Notes under the pieces: model-generated | What the model saw: the letters and a program-made list of their open reading frames with translations, nothing else | The model's database searches: none | Told to the model about the DNA's origin: nothing | In this document: positions 3,251 through 48,073 of the stretch, one piece after another | Layout of the letters: every line of letters begins with the position of its first letter | Position numbering within the stretch: position 1 is the first letter of the stretch | Program-made: the position numbers and the translations under genes | DNA from: Acetivibrio ethanolgignens | GTDB lineage: Bacteria > Bacillota > Clostridia > Lachnospirales > Lachnospiraceae | Assembly: GCF_001461035.1 (NCBI RefSeq) | Contig: NZ_LNAM01000197.1 | Location: 1-64,000 of the forward strand | Reading direction: 5' to 3' | Length of the DNA: 64,000 nt

Positions 3251-3640
3251 TTGATACTGGTAAGTTTGGCAGTGCGTATTGTGTTGGTTCTGGGGTAAAT
3301 GTGTAGGGTGGTTCTTTCGCCCTGCTCCTGCCTTTGGGGTATGGTCTTGCGGTTTCCGCTTGGCTTGCCCCTCACGCCTGCACACAATGCCCTACGGTGC
3401 GTTTTATTGGCTTTGGTGCGTACTACTGCCACCGTGGGGCAAAAATCGAAATTTGGGCTTTCTGGGGCTTGGGATTATAGTTCTTATTCGTACTGGTTTA
3501 GGAACTATGGCTATACTGGTGGGTTCTGTGGTATCGTTAGCGAATTTTAGGAACTATCTGGGTGTAGTTATTGGAACTTGGCATATTTTGGCTGACCTTT
3601 ACTGGTTGGTCTGTGATGATATTTGATTGGAGTTGGTGTA
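3251..3640. other. 390-bp gene-free gap between two recombinases
   Basis: No frame here has a ribosome site or recognisable product. The GC content is higher than in the neighbours (for example around 3300-3440), and the frames look like chance openings. A phrase near 3484 (CGTACTGGTTTAGGAACTATGGCT) recurs in the second module at 9728, where most of the gap has been deleted. It may be a decayed gene or a recombination site. Confidence 0.5.
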
Positions 3641-4216
3641 ATGAATAAGAGAACAAGAGCAATAGACGAAGATACCTACAAGCTGATTATAGCCACCATG
3701 AAGAATGGTTTTGTGCATGAAGGTGTGCAGTCTAAGCCCAATGGGAGGGTTGCCACAGTTCTTGTACTGGAATATAATCTTGGTCTGCGTGTTGGTGATA
3801 TCCTGCAACTTAAGGTAGACAGTTTTGTGAAAGATGGCAGTCGGTATCGTCTGGATATATATGAGCAGAAGACTGGCAAATACAGAAATTTCACAGTACC
3901 GAATGAAGTGTATCAGTTTGTGCGTGATTATGCTTATGCTCATGGTATCTCTTCAAGTGCAAGATTATTTCCGATTACAGAAAGAGCAGTATTGAAGCAT
4001 CTGAAGGCAGTATGCTCTTATCTGGCTCTTAACGGGGTAGGTTCTCACAGTTTCCGCAAAGGATTCGCCACTAACGTGTATGTGAACAATCATTACAATA
4101 TCGAACTGGTCAGAACCCTGCTCCAGCATTCCAGTGTGAATGTGACCCAGAGATATATCGGTATCGGTAGTAAGGAACTGGAAGAAGCCATCCAGAAGAA
4201 TGTCTGTCTTGGGTAG
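3641..4216 (+). CDS. Tyrosine recombinase, catalytic domain only
   Basis: A 191-residue protein carrying the tyrosine recombinase signature: arginine in LGLRVGDILQL, HSFRKGFAT (H-x-x-R), and LLQHSSVNVTQRYIGI with the final H and the catalytic Y. It lacks most of the N-terminal core-binding domain, being about 100 residues shorter than Xer or phage integrases and closer in size to FimB-type invertases. The start is the ATG at 3641 with TTGGAG 9 nt upstream. It could integrate or excise the island, or invert DNA. A 39-bp piece of its 3' end recurs at 9872-9910 in the collapsed second module. Confidence 0.8.
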   Translation: MNKRTRAIDEDTYKLIIATMKNGFVHEGVQSKPNGRVATVLVLEYNLGLRVGDILQLKVDSFVKDGSRYRLDIYEQKTGKYRNFTVPNEVYQFVRDYAYAHGISSSARLFPITERAVLKHLKAVCSYLALNGVGSHSFRKGFATNVYVNNHYNIELVRTLLQHSSVNVTQRYIGIGSKELEEAIQKNVCLG

Positions 4217-31515: not shown

Positions 31516-31545
31516 ATTATACTATTTGACCTCTTTATTTGTCAA
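31516..31545 (-). promoter_or_regulatory. Promoter of pyrBI
   Basis: On the reverse strand, TTGACA (31540-31545) and TATAAT (31516-31521) are separated by 18 bp, about 75 bp before pyrB. Confidence 0.75.
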
Positions 31546-31557
31546 TCGTCATTTTGA

Positions 31558-32118
31558 TTAAAAAAAAGAGAATAGATAGGGGTTTTTGTAGCAATATATA
31601 GAATGGGACAATATATATGAAGTGTGAAAACAGAGAGAAAAACATGAAAATGCCTTTTTATATAGCTGTGAAAGTATTGAAAATACGCTGTTTTTGAAAA
31701 ATAGTGGACAAAACAAGATGTTTTTTTTGTAAAAAACGGTAAGTGGCAGCCAGAATTTGAATAAATAAATATAAAAAGGGTTTAAGAGGTATAAATAAAA
31801 CACGAATAAGGGAAAATAAAAAAGGGAAATGCATAAACATACTAAACAACTTAAGAATATTAGAGGAATTCACTGAATATACCAAAAATAATGCATATTC
31901 ATTCATTAGTAGTTATGATGTATAAAATGTGAATATTCATAAATAATTCAAATAAAACAAACAATTATACAGAATATACATGAAAAATGGTGAATATTCA
32001 TAGGAAAAATCTAGGAAGAAAAATACAAAATATCAACTATTAAAAATCAGACAAAAATAAAAAAAATCATGTATTATTAAGACATCAAAGGAAGCAGGGA
32101 AATGTAGTGCGATGTGTT
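31558..32118. other. AT-rich intergenic region upstream of the arginine deiminase operon
   Basis: About 560 bp, very A/T-rich, with only chance frames (for example the reverse-strand frames at 31558-31906, rich in F, Y and L and without ribosome sites). The left 330 bp hold nothing I can name. The right part carries the candidate ArgR boxes. Such a long regulatory region is unusual for this compact genome. Confidence 0.6.
31889..32003 (+). promoter_or_regulatory. Cluster of candidate ArgR boxes upstream of arcA
   Basis: At least three sites resemble the ArgR operator (ATGAATAWWWATTCAT-like): ATGCATATTCATTCATT at 31891-31907, GTGAATATTCATAAATAATTC at 31929-31949 (two half-sites in register), and TGAATATTCATA at 31991-32002. 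A weaker CTGAATATACC lies at 31873. Spacing between them is about 40-60 bp. The argR gene is at 39855. Arginine-bound ArgR activates arcABC in other Firmicutes, so the same is inferred here. Confidence 0.6.
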
Positions 32119-32247
32119 ATCGGTCATTATAAGATGTCATATGGATTGTAAAAAACAGGAAAACATGATATACTAATTACAACATTACTTGTTCTTTACT
32201 TAATAACTTGTTCTCTTTATATAATATGGCATCTTATAATGACCGAT
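32119..32247. repeat. 22-bp inverted repeat around the arcA promoter
   Basis: Left arm 32119-32140 and right arm 32226-32247 are reverse complements at 21 of 22 positions; with a small bulge the match extends a few bases outward (GATG/CATC). The 85 bp between contain the whole arcA promoter (-35 at 32146, -10 at 32169). Inverted repeats of this size around a promoter are the hallmark of invertible, phase-variable promoters. In this assembly the promoter faces arcA (ON). Two copies of ACTTGTTCT also lie inside. The alternative is a pair of regulator sites that loop DNA. Confidence 0.7.
32146..32174 (+). promoter_or_regulatory. Promoter of arcA
   Basis: TTGTAA and TATACT with 17-bp spacing. 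The predicted transcript would have a leader of about 135 nt that includes the right arm of the inverted repeat. Confidence 0.7.
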
Positions 32248-32315
32248 TCCATCGAGTGTCATTTCTAAAACAAATAAACTCGCGAAAAGCGACTAAGAAA
32301 AAGGAGGATATAAAA

Positions 32316-33539
32316 GTGGCTGCAATTAATGTAAAGAGTGAGATTAAACCACTTAAAAAGGTGCTGTTACACCGCCCTGGAAAAGAGTTAGAGAATTTAA
32401 CTCCAGATACTCTCGAAAGATTACTTTTCGATGATATCCCATTCCTGGAAGTAGCACAGGCAGAGCATGATGCTTTTGCACAGGTATTGCGTGAGAACGG
32501 AGTAGAGGTTGTTTATCTTGAGGATTTAATGGCAGAGGTTCTTGACTTAAGCGATGAAATTCGCGATAAGTTCATTCGTCAGTGGATTGAAGAAGCTGGT
32601 ATCAAGACTCGCAAATGGCAGGATAAGATTTACGACTTTATGATGCAGTACAAGGATGACAACAAGGCATTAGTATTAAAGACTATGGAAGGTATCGTTC
32701 TGAATGAGGTTAAGGTTAATAAGGCTGAGTCCTTAGTAGACTTAATGAGTGATAACTCAAAGCTCTTAATCGATCCAATGCCAAACCTGTATTTCACAAG
32801 AGACCCATTTGCTTGTATCGGTAATGGCGTAAGCTTAAATAGAATGTACTCTGTAACAAGAAACAGAGAGACAATCTATGGCGAGTATATCTTCAACTAT
32901 CATCCAGATTATAAGGGACAGGTTGATAAGTACTTTGACCGTTACAACCCATTCCATATCGAAGGTGGAGATATCTTAAACATCAACGATAAGGTACTGG
33001 CAATCGGTATTTCCCAGAGAACTCAGGCAGATGCTATTGAAATGTTAGCTCACAAGATTTTCTCTGATGAGAAGGCTACTATTAATACAATTCTTGCATT
33101 TGACATCCCTGAGTCCAGAGCATTTATGCACTTGGATACTGTATTTACTCAGATTGACTACGATAAGTTTACTATCCATCCAGGTATCTTAGGACCATTA
33201 GTGGTATATGAGATTACTAAGGGCGAAGATGGTCTTAATGTTACAAAGGTAGAGTCTGACTTAGAGCATGTATTAGCTAAGCATTTAGGCATTGATAAGG
33301 TTACATTAATCAAGTGCGGCGGCGAGGATAGAATCGCAGCTGAGCGTGAGCAGTGGAACGATGGTTCCAACACCTTATGCATTGCTCCTGGTGTAGTAGT
33401 TGTATATGAGAGAAATACAGTTACTAATGCATTGTTAAAAGAGCATGGTGTTAAGCTTCTGTCAATTCCAAGTGCGGAGCTGTCCAGAGGTAGAGGAGGC
33501 CCACGTTGTATGTCCATGCCTCTCGTAAGAGAAGATTAA
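32316..33539 (+). CDS. arcA: Arginine deiminase
   Basis: A 407-residue enzyme that turns arginine into citrulline and ammonia, the first step of ATP-yielding arginine breakdown. Motifs: [39 protein letters not shown] (catalytic E and H region), [10 protein letters not shown], and the C-terminal catalytic cysteine in [12 protein letters not shown]. The start is a GTG at 32316, 8 nt after AGGAGG; a longer frame would read through the inverted repeat and lacks a site. Codon use is that of a highly expressed gene. Confidence 0.96.
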
Positions 33540-33613: not shown

Positions 33614-34606
33614 ATGGCAGTAAATTTACGTGGAAGAAGCTATTTAAAACTTTTAGACTTCACATCTGAAGAGATTCGTTATCTCTTAGACCTGTCCAAG
33701 AATTTCAAGGACTTAAAGAGAACTAACACACCTCACAGATATCTGGAAGGAAAGAACATCGTACTGTTATTTGAGAAAACCTCTACAAGAACCAGATGCT
33801 CTTTCGAGGTTGCTGGTTTAGATTTAGGTATGGGTGTTACCTACCTTGATCCAGGAAGCTCTCAGATGGGTAAAAAAGAGAGCATCGCAGATACCGCTCG
33901 CGTATTAGGAAGAATGTACGATGGTATTGAATATCGTGGCTTCAGCCAGGAATTAGTTCAGCAGCTATCTGACTATGCAGGAGTTCCTGTATGGAATGGT
34001 TTAACAGATCAGTTCCACCCAACACAGATGTTAGCAGATCTTCTTACAATTGAGGAGAAGATTGGACATCTTAAGGGTGTAAACTTCACTTACATGGGAG
34101 ATGCCAGAAATAACATGGGTAACTCTTTAATGGTTGCTTGTGCAAAGATGGGTCTTAACTTTACAGCTTGTGCTCCAAAGGAATTATTCCCAGAAGAGTG
34201 GTTAGTTGAAGAGTGTAAGAAGATTGCAGCAGAGAATGGCTGCACTGTTACCTTAACAGAAGATGTTAAGGCTGGAACTAAAAATGCAGATGTTATTTAC
34301 ACAGACATTTGGGTATCTATGGGCGAGCCTGACGACGTTTGGGAGACAAGAATTAAGTTATTAAAGCCTTACCAGGTAAACAAAGCTGTTATGGAAAATG
34401 CAAGTCCTGAAGCTATCTTCATGCACTGTCTGCCATCCTTCCACGACAGAAATACTACAATTGGTGAGGATATCGCTCAGAAATTCGGTGTAAACGAAAT
34501 GGAAGTTACCGATGAGGTATTTGAGTCAAAACAGTCTGTTGTATTTGACGAAGCAGAGAACAGAATGCATACAATTAAGGCAGTAGTATACGCTACTCTG
34601 TGCTAA
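33614..34606 (+). CDS. arcB: Ornithine carbamoyltransferase (catabolic context)
   Basis: A 330-residue transferase that splits citrulline with phosphate into ornithine and carbamoyl phosphate in this pathway. Motifs: [15 protein letters not shown] (carbamoyl phosphate loop), [15 protein letters not shown], and HCLPSFHD. It could also serve biosynthesis (argF); placement between arcA and arcC favours the catabolic role. AAAAGGAG precedes the ATG. Confidence 0.95.
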
Positions 34607-34631: not shown

Positions 34632-35546
34632 ATGGAAAGTAAGAAAATCGTGCTTGCATTAGGCGGAAATGCTTTGGGAAATAATGCAGAGGAGCAGCTT
34701 CAGTTAGTTAAACACACTGCTAAGACAGTTGTAGACTTAATTTCCCAGGGTCACAAAGTCGTAATTGGTCATGGAAATGGTCCTCAGGTTGGTATGATTA
34801 ACCTTGCTATGGAAAGCGTGGCGATGCCATTCCCAGAATGCGGTGCTATGTCACAGGGATATATCGGTTATCATTTACAGCAGGCAGTTGGTCAGGAATT
34901 AAAAAGCCGTGGCATCAGGAAAGAAGTTGCTTGTATCGTAACTCAGGTTGTAGTGGACCCTGAGGATCCGGCATTCCAGAAGCCTACCAAGCCAATCGGT
35001 TCCTTTATGACAAAGGAAGAAGCAGACAAGGTTGCTGCTGAGAAGGGCTATGTATTCGTAGAGGATGCAGGTAGAGGCTATCGTAGAGTAGTTCCTTCAC
35101 CACAGCCAAAGAGAATCGTTGAGATTGATGTTGTAAACAAGCTGATTGAAGATGATGTAGTTGTTATCACTGTTGGAGGCGGTGGAATCCCGGTTGTTGA
35201 GACTCCGGAAGGCCTGCAGGGAACAGCAGCAGTTATTGACAAGGATAAATCCTGTGCAAAGCTTGCGGCAGACCTGAATGCAGATATGCTGGTTATTCTT
35301 ACTGCTGTCGACAGGGTATGCATTAACTTTAACAAACCGGATCAGAAGGAATTAGCAGAAATCACTCTTGATGAGGCAAAGCAGTATATTTCCGAAGGCC
35401 ATTTCGCTCCAGGAAGCATGCTGCCAAAGGTAGAGGCTTGTATGTCCTTTGTTGAGTCATCAGATGGCAGAGAGGCACTTATTACTTCTCTTGAGAAGGC
35501 TGGTTTGGCTATGACCGGAGAAACCGGAACAAGAATTAAAAAATAA
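34632..35546 (+). CDS. arcC: Carbamate kinase
   Basis: A 304-residue kinase that makes ATP from carbamoyl phosphate and ADP, the energy step of the pathway. Motifs: IVLALGGNALG at the N-terminus, VIGHGNGPQVGMINL, VITVGGGGIPVV, and LTAVDRVCINF. It follows arcB by 25 bp with a GGAG site. Confidence 0.95.
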   Translation: MESKKIVLALGGNALGNNAEEQLQLVKHTAKTVVDLISQGHKVVIGHGNGPQVGMINLAMESVAMPFPECGAMSQGYIGYHLQQAVGQELKSRGIRKEVACIVTQVVVDPEDPAFQKPTKPIGSFMTKEEADKVAAEKGYVFVEDAGRGYRRVVPSPQPKRIVEIDVVNKLIEDDVVVITVGGGGIPVVETPEGLQGTAAVIDKDKSCAKLAADLNADMLVILTAVDRVCINFNKPDQKELAEITLDEAKQYISEGHFAPGSMLPKVEACMSFVESSDGREALITSLEKAGLAMTGETGTRIKK

Positions 35547-35738: not shown

Positions 35739-37151
35739 ATGGAAAACAAGAAAAAGTTTCAAATGCCGTCGGCATACAGTATCTTAATTTTAATCATTAT
35801 CGTACTTGCAATTATTACTCATCTGATTCCAGGTGATGCTGTTACAGGAGCGAAACTTTCTGATGTAGTTATGGCTCCAACAAATGGTTTTGTTAATGCT
35901 ATTGACGTTTGTGTATTCGTACTGGTATTGGGTGGTTTTCTCGGTACTATGACCAAAACAGGTGCTTTGGATGCAGGCATTGCTGCTATTGTTAAAAAGC
36001 TTAAGGGCAATGAGATTATGCTGATTCCAGTACTTATGATAGTTTTCTCTTTAGGTGGAACTACTTATGGTATGGCAGAAGAGACAATAGCATTCTACGC
36101 ACTTATCGTTGGTACCATGATGGCTGCTGGATTTGACGCCCTTGTTGGTGCAGCTATTATCATGATTGGTGCCGGTGTTGGTGTATTGGGCTCTACTGTA
36201 AACCCATTCGCAATTGCAGCAGCAGTAGATGCTCTGCAGGGTGCATATCCTGATATTCAGGTAAATCAGACAGTTATTATCGCTTTAGGAGCGGTTCTTT
36301 GGATTTCTTCTTTGGTTATCGGTATTATCTTTGTGGTGAACTATGCAAAGAAGGTAAAGGCTGAATCTGGTAGGTCTATTCTGACTGCAGTCGAAAGAGC
36401 AGCAGCTCAGGAGGCTCATGGAAACAAAGACTTAGACAACATCGTAAGCCTTACAGGAAGGCAGAAGGCTTGCCTGTGGATATTTGCTATTTCATTTGTT
36501 GTTATGATTGTATCTTTAATTCCTTGGACTGATTTTGGTATTACTATTTTTGAGAACTGGTCCGATATTTTAACAGGAACTGCTTTGGGCGGTTGGTATT
36601 TCCAGGAATTACAGGCATGGTTCCTGATAATGTCCATCATTATTGCTATAGTTTATGGTATTCCAGAGCGTGAATTTATAAATACCTTCATAGCTGGTGC
36701 AGCAGATATGGTCGGCGTTGTATTAGTTATTGCTGTATCCCGTGGTATTTCTGTCATTATGACAACTACAGGTCTTGGTGATTACATCCTTGCAAATGCA
36801 GCAAATGCATTATCTGGTGTAAACTCCTCCCTGTTTACAATCGGAAGCTACATTATTTACTTAGGATTATCCTTCTTAATCCCATCTACATCCGGTTTAG
36901 CAGCAGCTTCTATGCCTACCTTTGGTGGTCTAGCATATCAGCTTGGCTTAAGCCCAGAAGTTATGATTCTTATCTTCTCAGCTGCCTGCGGTGTAGTAAA
37001 CCTGGTTACTCCTACTTCCGGAGTAGTTATGGGTGGTCTTGCAATTGCTAAGGTTGAATGGCCTACATGGGTTAAGTTCGTAGCTAAGTTATTAGGTATC
37101 TTAATCGTTGCTAACATCATCATTCTTTCTGTAGCAATGATGATTCTGTAA
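35739..37151 (+). CDS. YfcC-family antiporter, probable arginine/ornithine exchanger
   Basis: A 470-residue membrane protein with about eleven hydrophobic segments, of the YfcC/ArcD-like DcuC superfamily. Motifs: VLVLGGFLGTMTKTGALDAGI, GGTTYGMAEETIAFY, FLIPSTSGLAAASMP, and TPTSGVVMGGLAIAKV near the C-terminus. It would exchange outside arginine for inside ornithine, so no energy is spent on uptake. The operon position behind arcABC makes this role likely; substrate is inferred. Confidence 0.85.
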   Translation: MENKKKFQMPSAYSILILIIIVLAIITHLIPGDAVTGAKLSDVVMAPTNGFVNAIDVCVFVLVLGGFLGTMTKTGALDAGIAAIVKKLKGNEIMLIPVLMIVFSLGGTTYGMAEETIAFYALIVGTMMAAGFDALVGAAIIMIGAGVGVLGSTVNPFAIAAAVDALQGAYPDIQVNQTVIIALGAVLWISSLVIGIIFVVNYAKKVKAESGRSILTAVERAAAQEAHGNKDLDNIVSLTGRQKACLWIFAISFVVMIVSLIPWTDFGITIFENWSDILTGTALGGWYFQELQAWFLIMSIIIAIVYGIPEREFINTFIAGAADMVGVVLVIAVSRGISVIMTTTGLGDYILANAANALSGVNSSLFTIGSYIIYLGLSFLIPSTSGLAAASMPTFGGLAYQLGLSPEVMILIFSAACGVVNLVTPTSGVVMGGLAIAKVEWPTWVKFVAKLLGILIVANIIILSVAMMIL

Positions 37152-37311: not shown

Positions 37312-38565
37312 ATGCAGGATACACTAGAAGTGCAGCAGCAGTACAGCTCAAGGACTGACATTCATAAAATCGCATCCTTTGATTATGAAATTATAGAAGG
37401 AAAAAAGAGGCCAATTCTTCACCAGGAAGCCCGATTTCTCTATATAAATAAGGGAAAGGGCAGAATTAAAATTAATGAAAGGGAGTATACAGTAAAGGAA
37501 AACACTCTGATTTCTTTGGCTCCATGGGATTACACGGAGATTCCTGAGGTGAAAGAGACCTTCCAGTATTATCTGGTAGTATACAATTCTTTCCTGATTA
37601 CTCATATGATAAAATCTGCTATGAATATCGAAGGAGAAAACATACCTCTGTTGCAGACCATGACAGAGCATCCTCTGGTGTATCTCGAGGGCAAGGAAGC
37701 AGAGGATATGAAAGAGCTCTTTCGGAAGCTTCGGGAAGAGGTAGGTATAGAGTCTACATTGGATTTTCCAGAAAAAAGGCAGCTTTCTACGATTTATACG
37801 GCAAATCTTCTGATTGAAATTATGATTGGTTTCTGTCGGCTGACCAGCAATGAGCACAAAGAAAATGCTGTCAGCTACGAGGAGGATAAAAAAGCCAGAA
37901 TCTACAAATACATTTTTACTCATCTGAGTGAGAAAATTACGTTAAATAAACTATCAAAGCTGTTTTACATGAGTGAATCGACGATAAGTAAATATATCAT
38001 GGATACAACGGGCTTGACCTTTAATAATCTGTTGAATGAAATTCGAGTGGCAAAGACGATGAACTATCTTTTGTATACAGATTATACGCTGGAGGAGCTG
38101 GCTTCCATCCTTGGCTATGTTGATGCGGCACATATTTCCAAGGTGTTTGAAAGCCGTGTGGAAAATAAAATCAGTGATTACAGAAAAACCTATCAGAAGG
38201 TTCTGAAGATATGTAATATAAAGGAACGCCGGATGAGCTATGAGGTTACCTCCTATGTGATTGAGAATCATAGAGAAGAACTGACGGCAAAAGTAGTAGC
38301 AGATCATTTTCATATTTCAGTTACGGAGCTTAACGGTATCTTGATTTTTCAAACGGAGCGGAATTTCACAGATTTTCTGAATTTCCTCCGGATTAATTCG
38401 GCCTGTGAGCTTTTGGTTTCCGGCGATACGGCGATTACAGACATTGCTATTGAGGTAGGCTATAATACAGTTAAGACATTTACGAGAAATTTTGTTCATT
38501 ATAAGCATATGAATCCAAGTAATTATCGCAAAAATATCAGTTTGGAATATGCTGGAAAGGAATAG
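37312..38565 (+). CDS. AraC-type regulator with two tandem HTH domains
   Basis: A 417-residue protein. An N-terminal cupin-like sensor (RFLYINKGKGRIKINEREY, LISLAPWDYTEIP) is followed by one AraC DNA-binding domain (about 200-295: ITLNKLSKLFYMSESTISKY, LEELASILGYVDAAHISKVF) and a second, weaker one (about 320-412: LTAKVVADHFHISVTELNGI, ITDIAIEVGYNTVKTFTRNF). Most AraC proteins have one such domain. It lies directly after the arginine deiminase operon and is a candidate regulator of it. AAAGGAGG precedes the ATG. Confidence 0.8.
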   Translation: MQDTLEVQQQYSSRTDIHKIASFDYEIIEGKKRPILHQEARFLYINKGKGRIKINEREYTVKENTLISLAPWDYTEIPEVKETFQYYLVVYNSFLITHMIKSAMNIEGENIPLLQTMTEHPLVYLEGKEAEDMKELFRKLREEVGIESTLDFPEKRQLSTIYTANLLIEIMIGFCRLTSNEHKENAVSYEEDKKARIYKYIFTHLSEKITLNKLSKLFYMSESTISKYIMDTTGLTFNNLLNEIRVAKTMNYLLYTDYTLEELASILGYVDAAHISKVFESRVENKISDYRKTYQKVLKICNIKERRMSYEVTSYVIENHREELTAKVVADHFHISVTELNGILIFQTERNFTDFLNFLRINSACELLVSGDTAITDIAIEVGYNTVKTFTRNFVHYKHMNPSNYRKNISLEYAGKE

Positions 38566-39854: not shown

Positions 39855-40337
39855 ATGAAGGATACAAATGTAAAGGATTTAAACAGTTTGAAAGTGAGCC
39901 GGCAGGAAGTGATTCTGGAGCTGATTGAAAATGAAAATATTGGAACACAGAATGAATTGTCCAAACGGCTGGAGGATGCTGGCTTTGCGGTAACACAGGC
40001 AACGATATCCAGAGATATTCGTGAGCTTCGTCTGGTGAAGGTAGCTGATTCTCATGGGAATTACCATTATGAGGTTGGAAAGCCAAAGGAAAAATATCAG
40101 GCAAGCCATAAATTCTATTCTATTTTTATGGCTTCGGTATTTAAGGTGGATTATGCAAATAATCTGGTGGTTATCCGCTGCTATACAGGTATGGCACAGG
40201 CGGTATGTGCAACGATGGACAGTCTGGAGTGGCCTGGGGTAATCGGAACAGTTTCTGGTGATGATACTATTCTTGTAATTACAAGGGATGAAGAAAACGC
40301 TCATGAGCTGGTAAAGACTTTACGGGAGATTCGATAA
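39855..40337 (+). CDS. argR: Arginine repressor ArgR
   Basis: A 160-residue regulator. The N-terminal winged helix has TQNELSKRLEDAGFAVTQ and ATISRDIRELRLVKV (recognition helix); the C-terminal domain has CYTGMAQAVCATMD and GTVSGDDTILVI, the arginine-binding GTXXGDDT motif. With arginine it forms hexamers that bind ARG boxes; candidate boxes lie upstream of arcA. In Firmicutes the gene is often near recN; here it lies with the arginine fermentation genes. Confidence 0.96.
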   Translation: MKDTNVKDLNSLKVSRQEVILELIENENIGTQNELSKRLEDAGFAVTQATISRDIRELRLVKVADSHGNYHYEVGKPKEKYQASHKFYSIFMASVFKVDYANNLVVIRCYTGMAQAVCATMDSLEWPGVIGTVSGDDTILVITRDEENAHELVKTLREIR

Positions 40338-47743: not shown

Positions 47744-47866
47744 GATAAGTGCAAAGATAAGGAAACTGCCAGTTCGAGTTCACTCGAAACTGGCAGTTTC
47801 CTTATCTTTATAAGCGGGCTCGCCCGCGTGCCGATGGGCCGAAAGGGCCAGTGGCTAGCACTTATC
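47744..47866 (+). ncRNA. Structured region after rplA, possible multi-branch RNA
   Basis: GATAAGTGC (47744-47752) is the reverse complement of GCACTTATC (47858-47866) and could close a multi-branch fold. Inside lie a long near-perfect stem (47753-47778 with 47783-47809, loop TTCA), which also works as an rplA terminator of unusual length, then GCGGG-CTCG-CCCGC (47814-47827) and GGCC-GAAAG-GGCC (47837-47849). The first 25 bp resemble those after rplL (58341-58370). No coding frame fits. Function unknown. Confidence 0.5.
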
Positions 47867-48055
47867 ATGGAGAGAGGCGAAAGCCCGCGTAGTAATAGAA
47901 TTGCCCGTGGTTTTTACGGGCAGTTCTATTACGCAGCAGCACGGCAGCGAAAGAAACTGGCAGTTTCCTTATCTTTATAAGCGGGCTCGCCCGCGTGCCG
48001 ATGGGGCGAAAGGACCAGCGGCTAGCACTTATCATGGAGAGAGGCGAAAGCCCGC
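47786..48055 (+). repeat. 103-bp direct repeat with central hairpin
   Basis: Bases 47786-47888 recur at 47953-48055 with about six differences. Between them is a strong hairpin (47892-47908 with 47916-47932) flanked by GC-rich sequence (ACGCAGCAGCACGGCAGCG). The second copy ends 18 bp before the lacZ stop on the other strand. It looks like a structured intergenic repeat element that was duplicated, perhaps when the lac island entered here. Confidence 0.75.
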
Positions 48056-48073
48056 ATACCGATGGGCATCCAA

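Follow-up and report, generated by a model that had tools for sequence, protein, structure and literature searches.

The window, by which the whole stretch of 64,000 nucleotides is meant, is placed in the genus Velocimicrobium and carries an arginine deiminase operon, in which arcA, read from a GTG start, is followed by the genes for ornithine carbamoyltransferase, carbamate kinase (arcC) and a YfcC-type basic amino acid antiporter, behind which lie an AraC-family regulator and then, in this order, a tRNA-binding protein, a YitT-like protein and argR (Table 1). Upstream of arcA and divergent from it are pyrB and pyrI, with a perfect consensus promoter (TTGACA-18-TATAAT, 12 of 12 positions) on the minus strand at 31516-31545 upstream of pyrB. 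With arcA, ornithine carbamoyltransferase, arcC, the antiporter, argR and upstream ArgR-box-like sites, the locus resembles the ArgR/AhrC-controlled arginine deiminase operons of the Firmicutes, from which it differs in a long inverted repeat upstream of arcA that has no counterpart at this place in any of 78 arcA loci from outside Velocimicrobium. The GTGAATATTCATA repeats that resemble ArgR boxes, with a weak excess over shuffled sequence for the one at 31924-31941, lie, as the first-pass annotation had it, outside the segment framed by the repeat. Between these two boxes, 16 bp at 31963-31978 (AATTATACAGAATATA) are identical to the relative species compared, V. porci, and form the longest conserved intergenic block outside the repeat arms.

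Table 1. Features of the arcA upstream region and of the arc gene cluster, in window coordinates.
Feature	Position	Strand	Remark
ArgR-box-like sequence	31924..31941	.	Outside the segment; weak excess over shuffles
ArgR-box-like sequence	31985..32002	.	Outside the segment
Left arm, candidate recombination site	32119..32142	+	ATCGGTCATTATAAGATGTCATAT; 23/24 identical in V. porci
Intervening segment, putatively invertible, 81 bp	32143..32223	.	V. porci: 97 bp, 56% identical, apparently same orientation
Promoter-like TTGTAA-17-TATACT facing arcA	32146..32174	+	Non-significant alone
Interior motif ACATTACTTGTTCT	32182..32195	+	V. porci segment has ACATAACTTGTTCT aligned here, same orientation
Second copy, AACTTGTTCTCTTT	32205..32218	+	Could pair, in predicted RNA, with the arcA Shine-Dalgarno
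Right arm, reverse complement of left arm with one mismatch	32224..32247	-	22/24 identical in V. porci
TATAAT inside right arm, facing arcA	32235..32240	+	Would be the -10 of the best arcA-facing prediction in an inverted V. porci segment
arcA ribosome-binding site AAAAGGAGGATA	32299..32310	+	Identical in V. porci
arcA, arginine deiminase, GTG start	32316..33539	+	TIGR01078 above cut-off
Ornithine carbamoyltransferase gene	33614..34606	+	Many arc loci hold a co-located relative
arcC, carbamate kinase	34632..35546	+	-
YfcC-type basic amino acid antiporter	35739..37151	+	Below YfcC cut-off
AraC-family regulator, two AraC-type HTH regions	37312..38565	+	Relatives in Lachnotalea and Lacrimispora arc loci
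argR/ahrC, arginine regulator	39855..40337	+	TIGR01529 above cut-off

The repeat had been described as 22 bp long, at 32119-32140 and 32226-32247, with 21 of 22 positions matching; that match is confirmed, and the arms in fact extend inward to 24 nt with 23 of 24 positions paired and 81 bp enclosed; the repeat ends 69 bp ahead of the arcA start. The inverted repeat is far beyond chance, its score of 20 comparing with a best of 16 in 3000 simulations under a first-order Markov model of the 700 bp that precede arcA. A survey of about 795 kb of V. porci gave five repeats scoring at least 17, four of them with loops of at most 67 nt, from which it follows that long arms with a loop of this size are rare in the genus. 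The arm is asymmetric and the two arms are strictly inverted in both species; around its own midpoint, each arm also shows weak dyad symmetry (14 of 24 positions, P about 0.04). Within the window genome, no second copy of the site was found beyond chance at up to 3 mismatches. A second 22-bp repeat, at 47753-47976, was considered as a further switch and rejected, since it is a terminator-like palindrome that follows a ribosomal-protein gene and is present in duplicate; over 47753-48060, the second arm of this palindrome, together with roughly the next hundred bases (ataagcgggctcgcccgcg...), recurs as a duplicate about 170 bp further downstream.

Among the genomes searched, those nearest to that of the window are V. 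porci and one that is 88% complete and has no detectable arcA. V. porci carries an equivalent repeat at the equivalent place upstream of arcA (23 of 23 pairs around a 97-bp interior), with arms at -210 to -188 and -90 to -68 from arcA, compared with -197 to -174 and -92 to -69 in the window. Relatives that keep one arm only had been named in the first-pass annotation as part of what would speak against a switch; the opposite was found, V. porci keeping both arms perfectly. Between the two species the arms are identical at 23 and 22 of 24 positions, against 55% in the upstream region and 56% each in the interior and at the four-fold sites of arcA, which indicates that the arms are held by selection. 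No identical run elsewhere in the intergenic region is as long as those in the arms, and at a background identity of 60% the probability of at least 45 of 46 positions being unchanged is about 2e-9. Since the frame was kept while the surrounding DNA changed, this comparison argues that the repeat is almost certainly functional. Nearly all arm positions are preserved, the central TATAAG included, and the 23 arm pairs show one G-U and no compensatory change between the two species compared, so that the constraint would act on the sequence, beyond pairing. The distance between the arm centres is 105 bp in the window and 120 bp in V. porci, and with a difference of 16 bp in segment length the helical phase is not kept. 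As judged from the two genomes, the arms are two asymmetric, mutually inverted 23-bp sites under strong sequence-specific constraint.

Across the genomes searched, the repeat is confined to the arcA locus and to Velocimicrobium: about 395 other genomes of the family lack the site, bar two matches in other genera (at most 3 mismatches) that were dismissed as chance, both lying inside coding genes, and a search of IMG/VR gave no match. The repeat could be left over from a small mobile element that ended in inverted repeats, and have no present function; its size (129 bp) and layout suit a miniature element. However, it is single-copy in the genome, no target-site duplication is visible, and the ends are conserved where divergence of the interior and the flanks has reached saturation; this origin is disfavoured as very improbable.

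A constraint of this kind might also be exerted by a regulator, e.g. the AraC-family protein of the cluster, which would bind both arms as paired operators and control a promoter between or after them, with no inversion taking place. AraC-family proteins bind asymmetric sites of about arm length, the conservation of both arms is strong and sequence-specific, and the AraC-family gene in the cluster is 61% identical to its V. porci counterpart. However, Lachnotalea and Lacrimispora encode relatives of the regulator in their arc loci, and the arcA upstream regions there show no trace of the site, i.e. the site and the regulator do not co-occur in these loci. In addition, the genome holds no further site, and hence none before the regulator's own gene, and nearly every arm position including the centre is kept although spacing and helical phase are not; operators usually leave the centre free, whereas its conservation is expected if a strand-exchange region must match. 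Paired operators are on balance considered unlikely. The conserved centre, the asymmetry, the strict inversion and the variable spacing would, as far as two species can indicate, suit a recombination site better than either an operator pair or an RNA hairpin.

Inside the segment, where the full arcA promoter had been placed in the earlier annotation, the hexamers TTGTAA (32146-32151) and TATACT (32169-32174) are indeed present with a spacer of 17 and a TG upstream of the -10, but they are no better than shuffled DNA (their score of 9.2 stays below 9.9, the 95% point for shuffled sequence, with 7 promoter-like sites found in the region versus 5.8 expected) and are poorly conserved in V. porci. 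For the window, the best predicted site facing arcA comes from the segment as it now lies, and for V. porci only from the inverted one, where it would use the TATAAT in the arm. The interior also contains ACTTGTTCT twice, at 32188-32196 and 32206-32214, and the second copy with its continuation is complementary to the arcA Shine-Dalgarno.

These interior sequences allow for an RNA-based explanation, in which a transcript from an upstream promoter would fold the arms into a 24-bp hairpin whose loop traps the anti-Shine-Dalgarno UUGUUCUCUUU and leaves the ribosome-binding site free, while a transcript starting inside the segment would lack the left arm and mask it. Consistent with such a leader-RNA switch, the sole arm mismatch would be a G-U pair in the transcript, the conserved interior motif includes the pyrimidine tract that would pair with the Shine-Dalgarno, and in both species the Shine-Dalgarno is predicted to be unpaired at 0.18-0.20 for a start inside the segment versus 0.70-0.86 with both arms; the 231-nt fold has a z of -5.9, though any such repeat would give that. 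Against it, masking of equal strength arises when the upstream sequence is shuffled (values as low in 15 and 38 of 100 cases), no Rfam family and no terminator were found, and the two species show no compensatory change in the 23 pairs at a background identity of 55%, which speaks for conservation of the sequence itself beyond pairing. A leader-RNA switch acting in this way is regarded as quite improbable.

Site-specific recombination, i.e. an invertible-promoter switch, is taken here as the best explanation of the paired sites, with a confidence slightly better than even. In the mechanism that this would entail, the arms serve a site-specific recombinase as its sites; the enzyme would act in trans and probably belong to the tyrosine type, and exchange between the mutually inverted sites would flip the segment of 81 bp (97 bp in V. 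porci), changing the promoter elements and the leader sequence that face arcA. Expression of the arginine deiminase operon would thereby be set in part of the population, and arginine control via the upstream ArgR-type boxes would add to the flip. The more complete version, in which a trans-acting recombinase with a single target swaps both the promoter and the anti-Shine-Dalgarno leader and part of the Velocimicrobium population degrades arginine, is tentative and somewhat doubtful. The repeat has the layout of an invertible promoter and inversion is likely, but no inverted form was seen among the two assemblies, of the window genome and of V. porci, whose interiors align in the same orientation (a forward score of 50 against 29 +/- 5 for shuffled sequence, and 32 in reverse). 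The phase-variable switch put forward in the first-pass annotation is thereby upheld in its conserved repeat and its layout, and not in its promoter, which is close to background, nor in the orientation of the two assemblies or a cognate recombinase, which the searches did not find.

The arrangement can be compared with described switches. PhaseFinder-type invertons are bounded by inverted repeats of 10-40 nt (PMC11892184), a range into which the arcA repeat falls around its intergenic segment (24 nt, 23 of 24 paired; 23 of 23 in V. porci). It agrees with gut-bacterial invertons in arm length and intergenic position, and its promoter-like site, close to background as it is, would suit such a segment; unlike it, those were called from reads in both orientations, and many lie near surface-structure and invertase genes. 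The RecV-dependent cmr switch of C. difficile likewise has imperfect inverted repeats around a promoter segment upstream of an operon and further control upstream, with one promoter upstream of the segment, another in it and a third downstream (PMC8844915). It differs in controlling a signalling system and in that its inversion and its enzyme are proven, whereas for the catabolic arc operon we infer all three, the occurrence of recombination, its switching of arcA and its enzyme, from the sequence. RecV inverts several sequences (PMC8844915), which provides a precedent for an enzyme with more than one target. A search of the full-text literature, which leaves most subscription papers outside and is correspondingly weak evidence, gave no description of an arginine deiminase with phase variation or an invertible promoter, in agreement with the earlier statement that no established case is known for this operon. 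If the segment flips, a gut bacterium would toggle a central energy- and ammonia-producing catabolic pathway by DNA inversion, arginine use in the gut would be a bet-hedged trait, and the recombinase implied would have an unusually narrow target to which it is not linked; without flipping, the pair of conserved 23-bp sites would still give this well-studied operon a new control element.

No recombinase gene adjoins the repeat, as had been noted for a dedicated invertase. The window genome has 34 tyrosine and 25 serine recombinase matches and V. porci has 15 and 10, and among these no clear vertically inherited orthologue is shared by the two. The closest pair, of the serine type and 82% identical, was rejected because it sits among conjugative-element genes, and a 197-aa tyrosine recombinase at 3623-4216 was rejected with its relatives, all of them lying among mobile-element genes and without such repeats; it has a 94% identical copy on contig C4 and more distant ones on C201 and C208, and is 56% identical to one of V. 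porci. Velocimicrobium does carry recombinase genes framed by inverted repeats: tyrosine recombinases of 192 and 205 aa, 53% identical to each other, lie within their own repeats in V. porci (L171:4184-4962; 22 nt, perfect) and in the third genome of the genus (L115:1312-2110; 36 nt, near-perfect). Their site differs from that at arcA, and they were rejected as its enzyme. Both genes stand directly beside a csrA-like gene, to which a flagellin gene is added in L115, and these loci are likely self-inverting flagellar or csrA switches.
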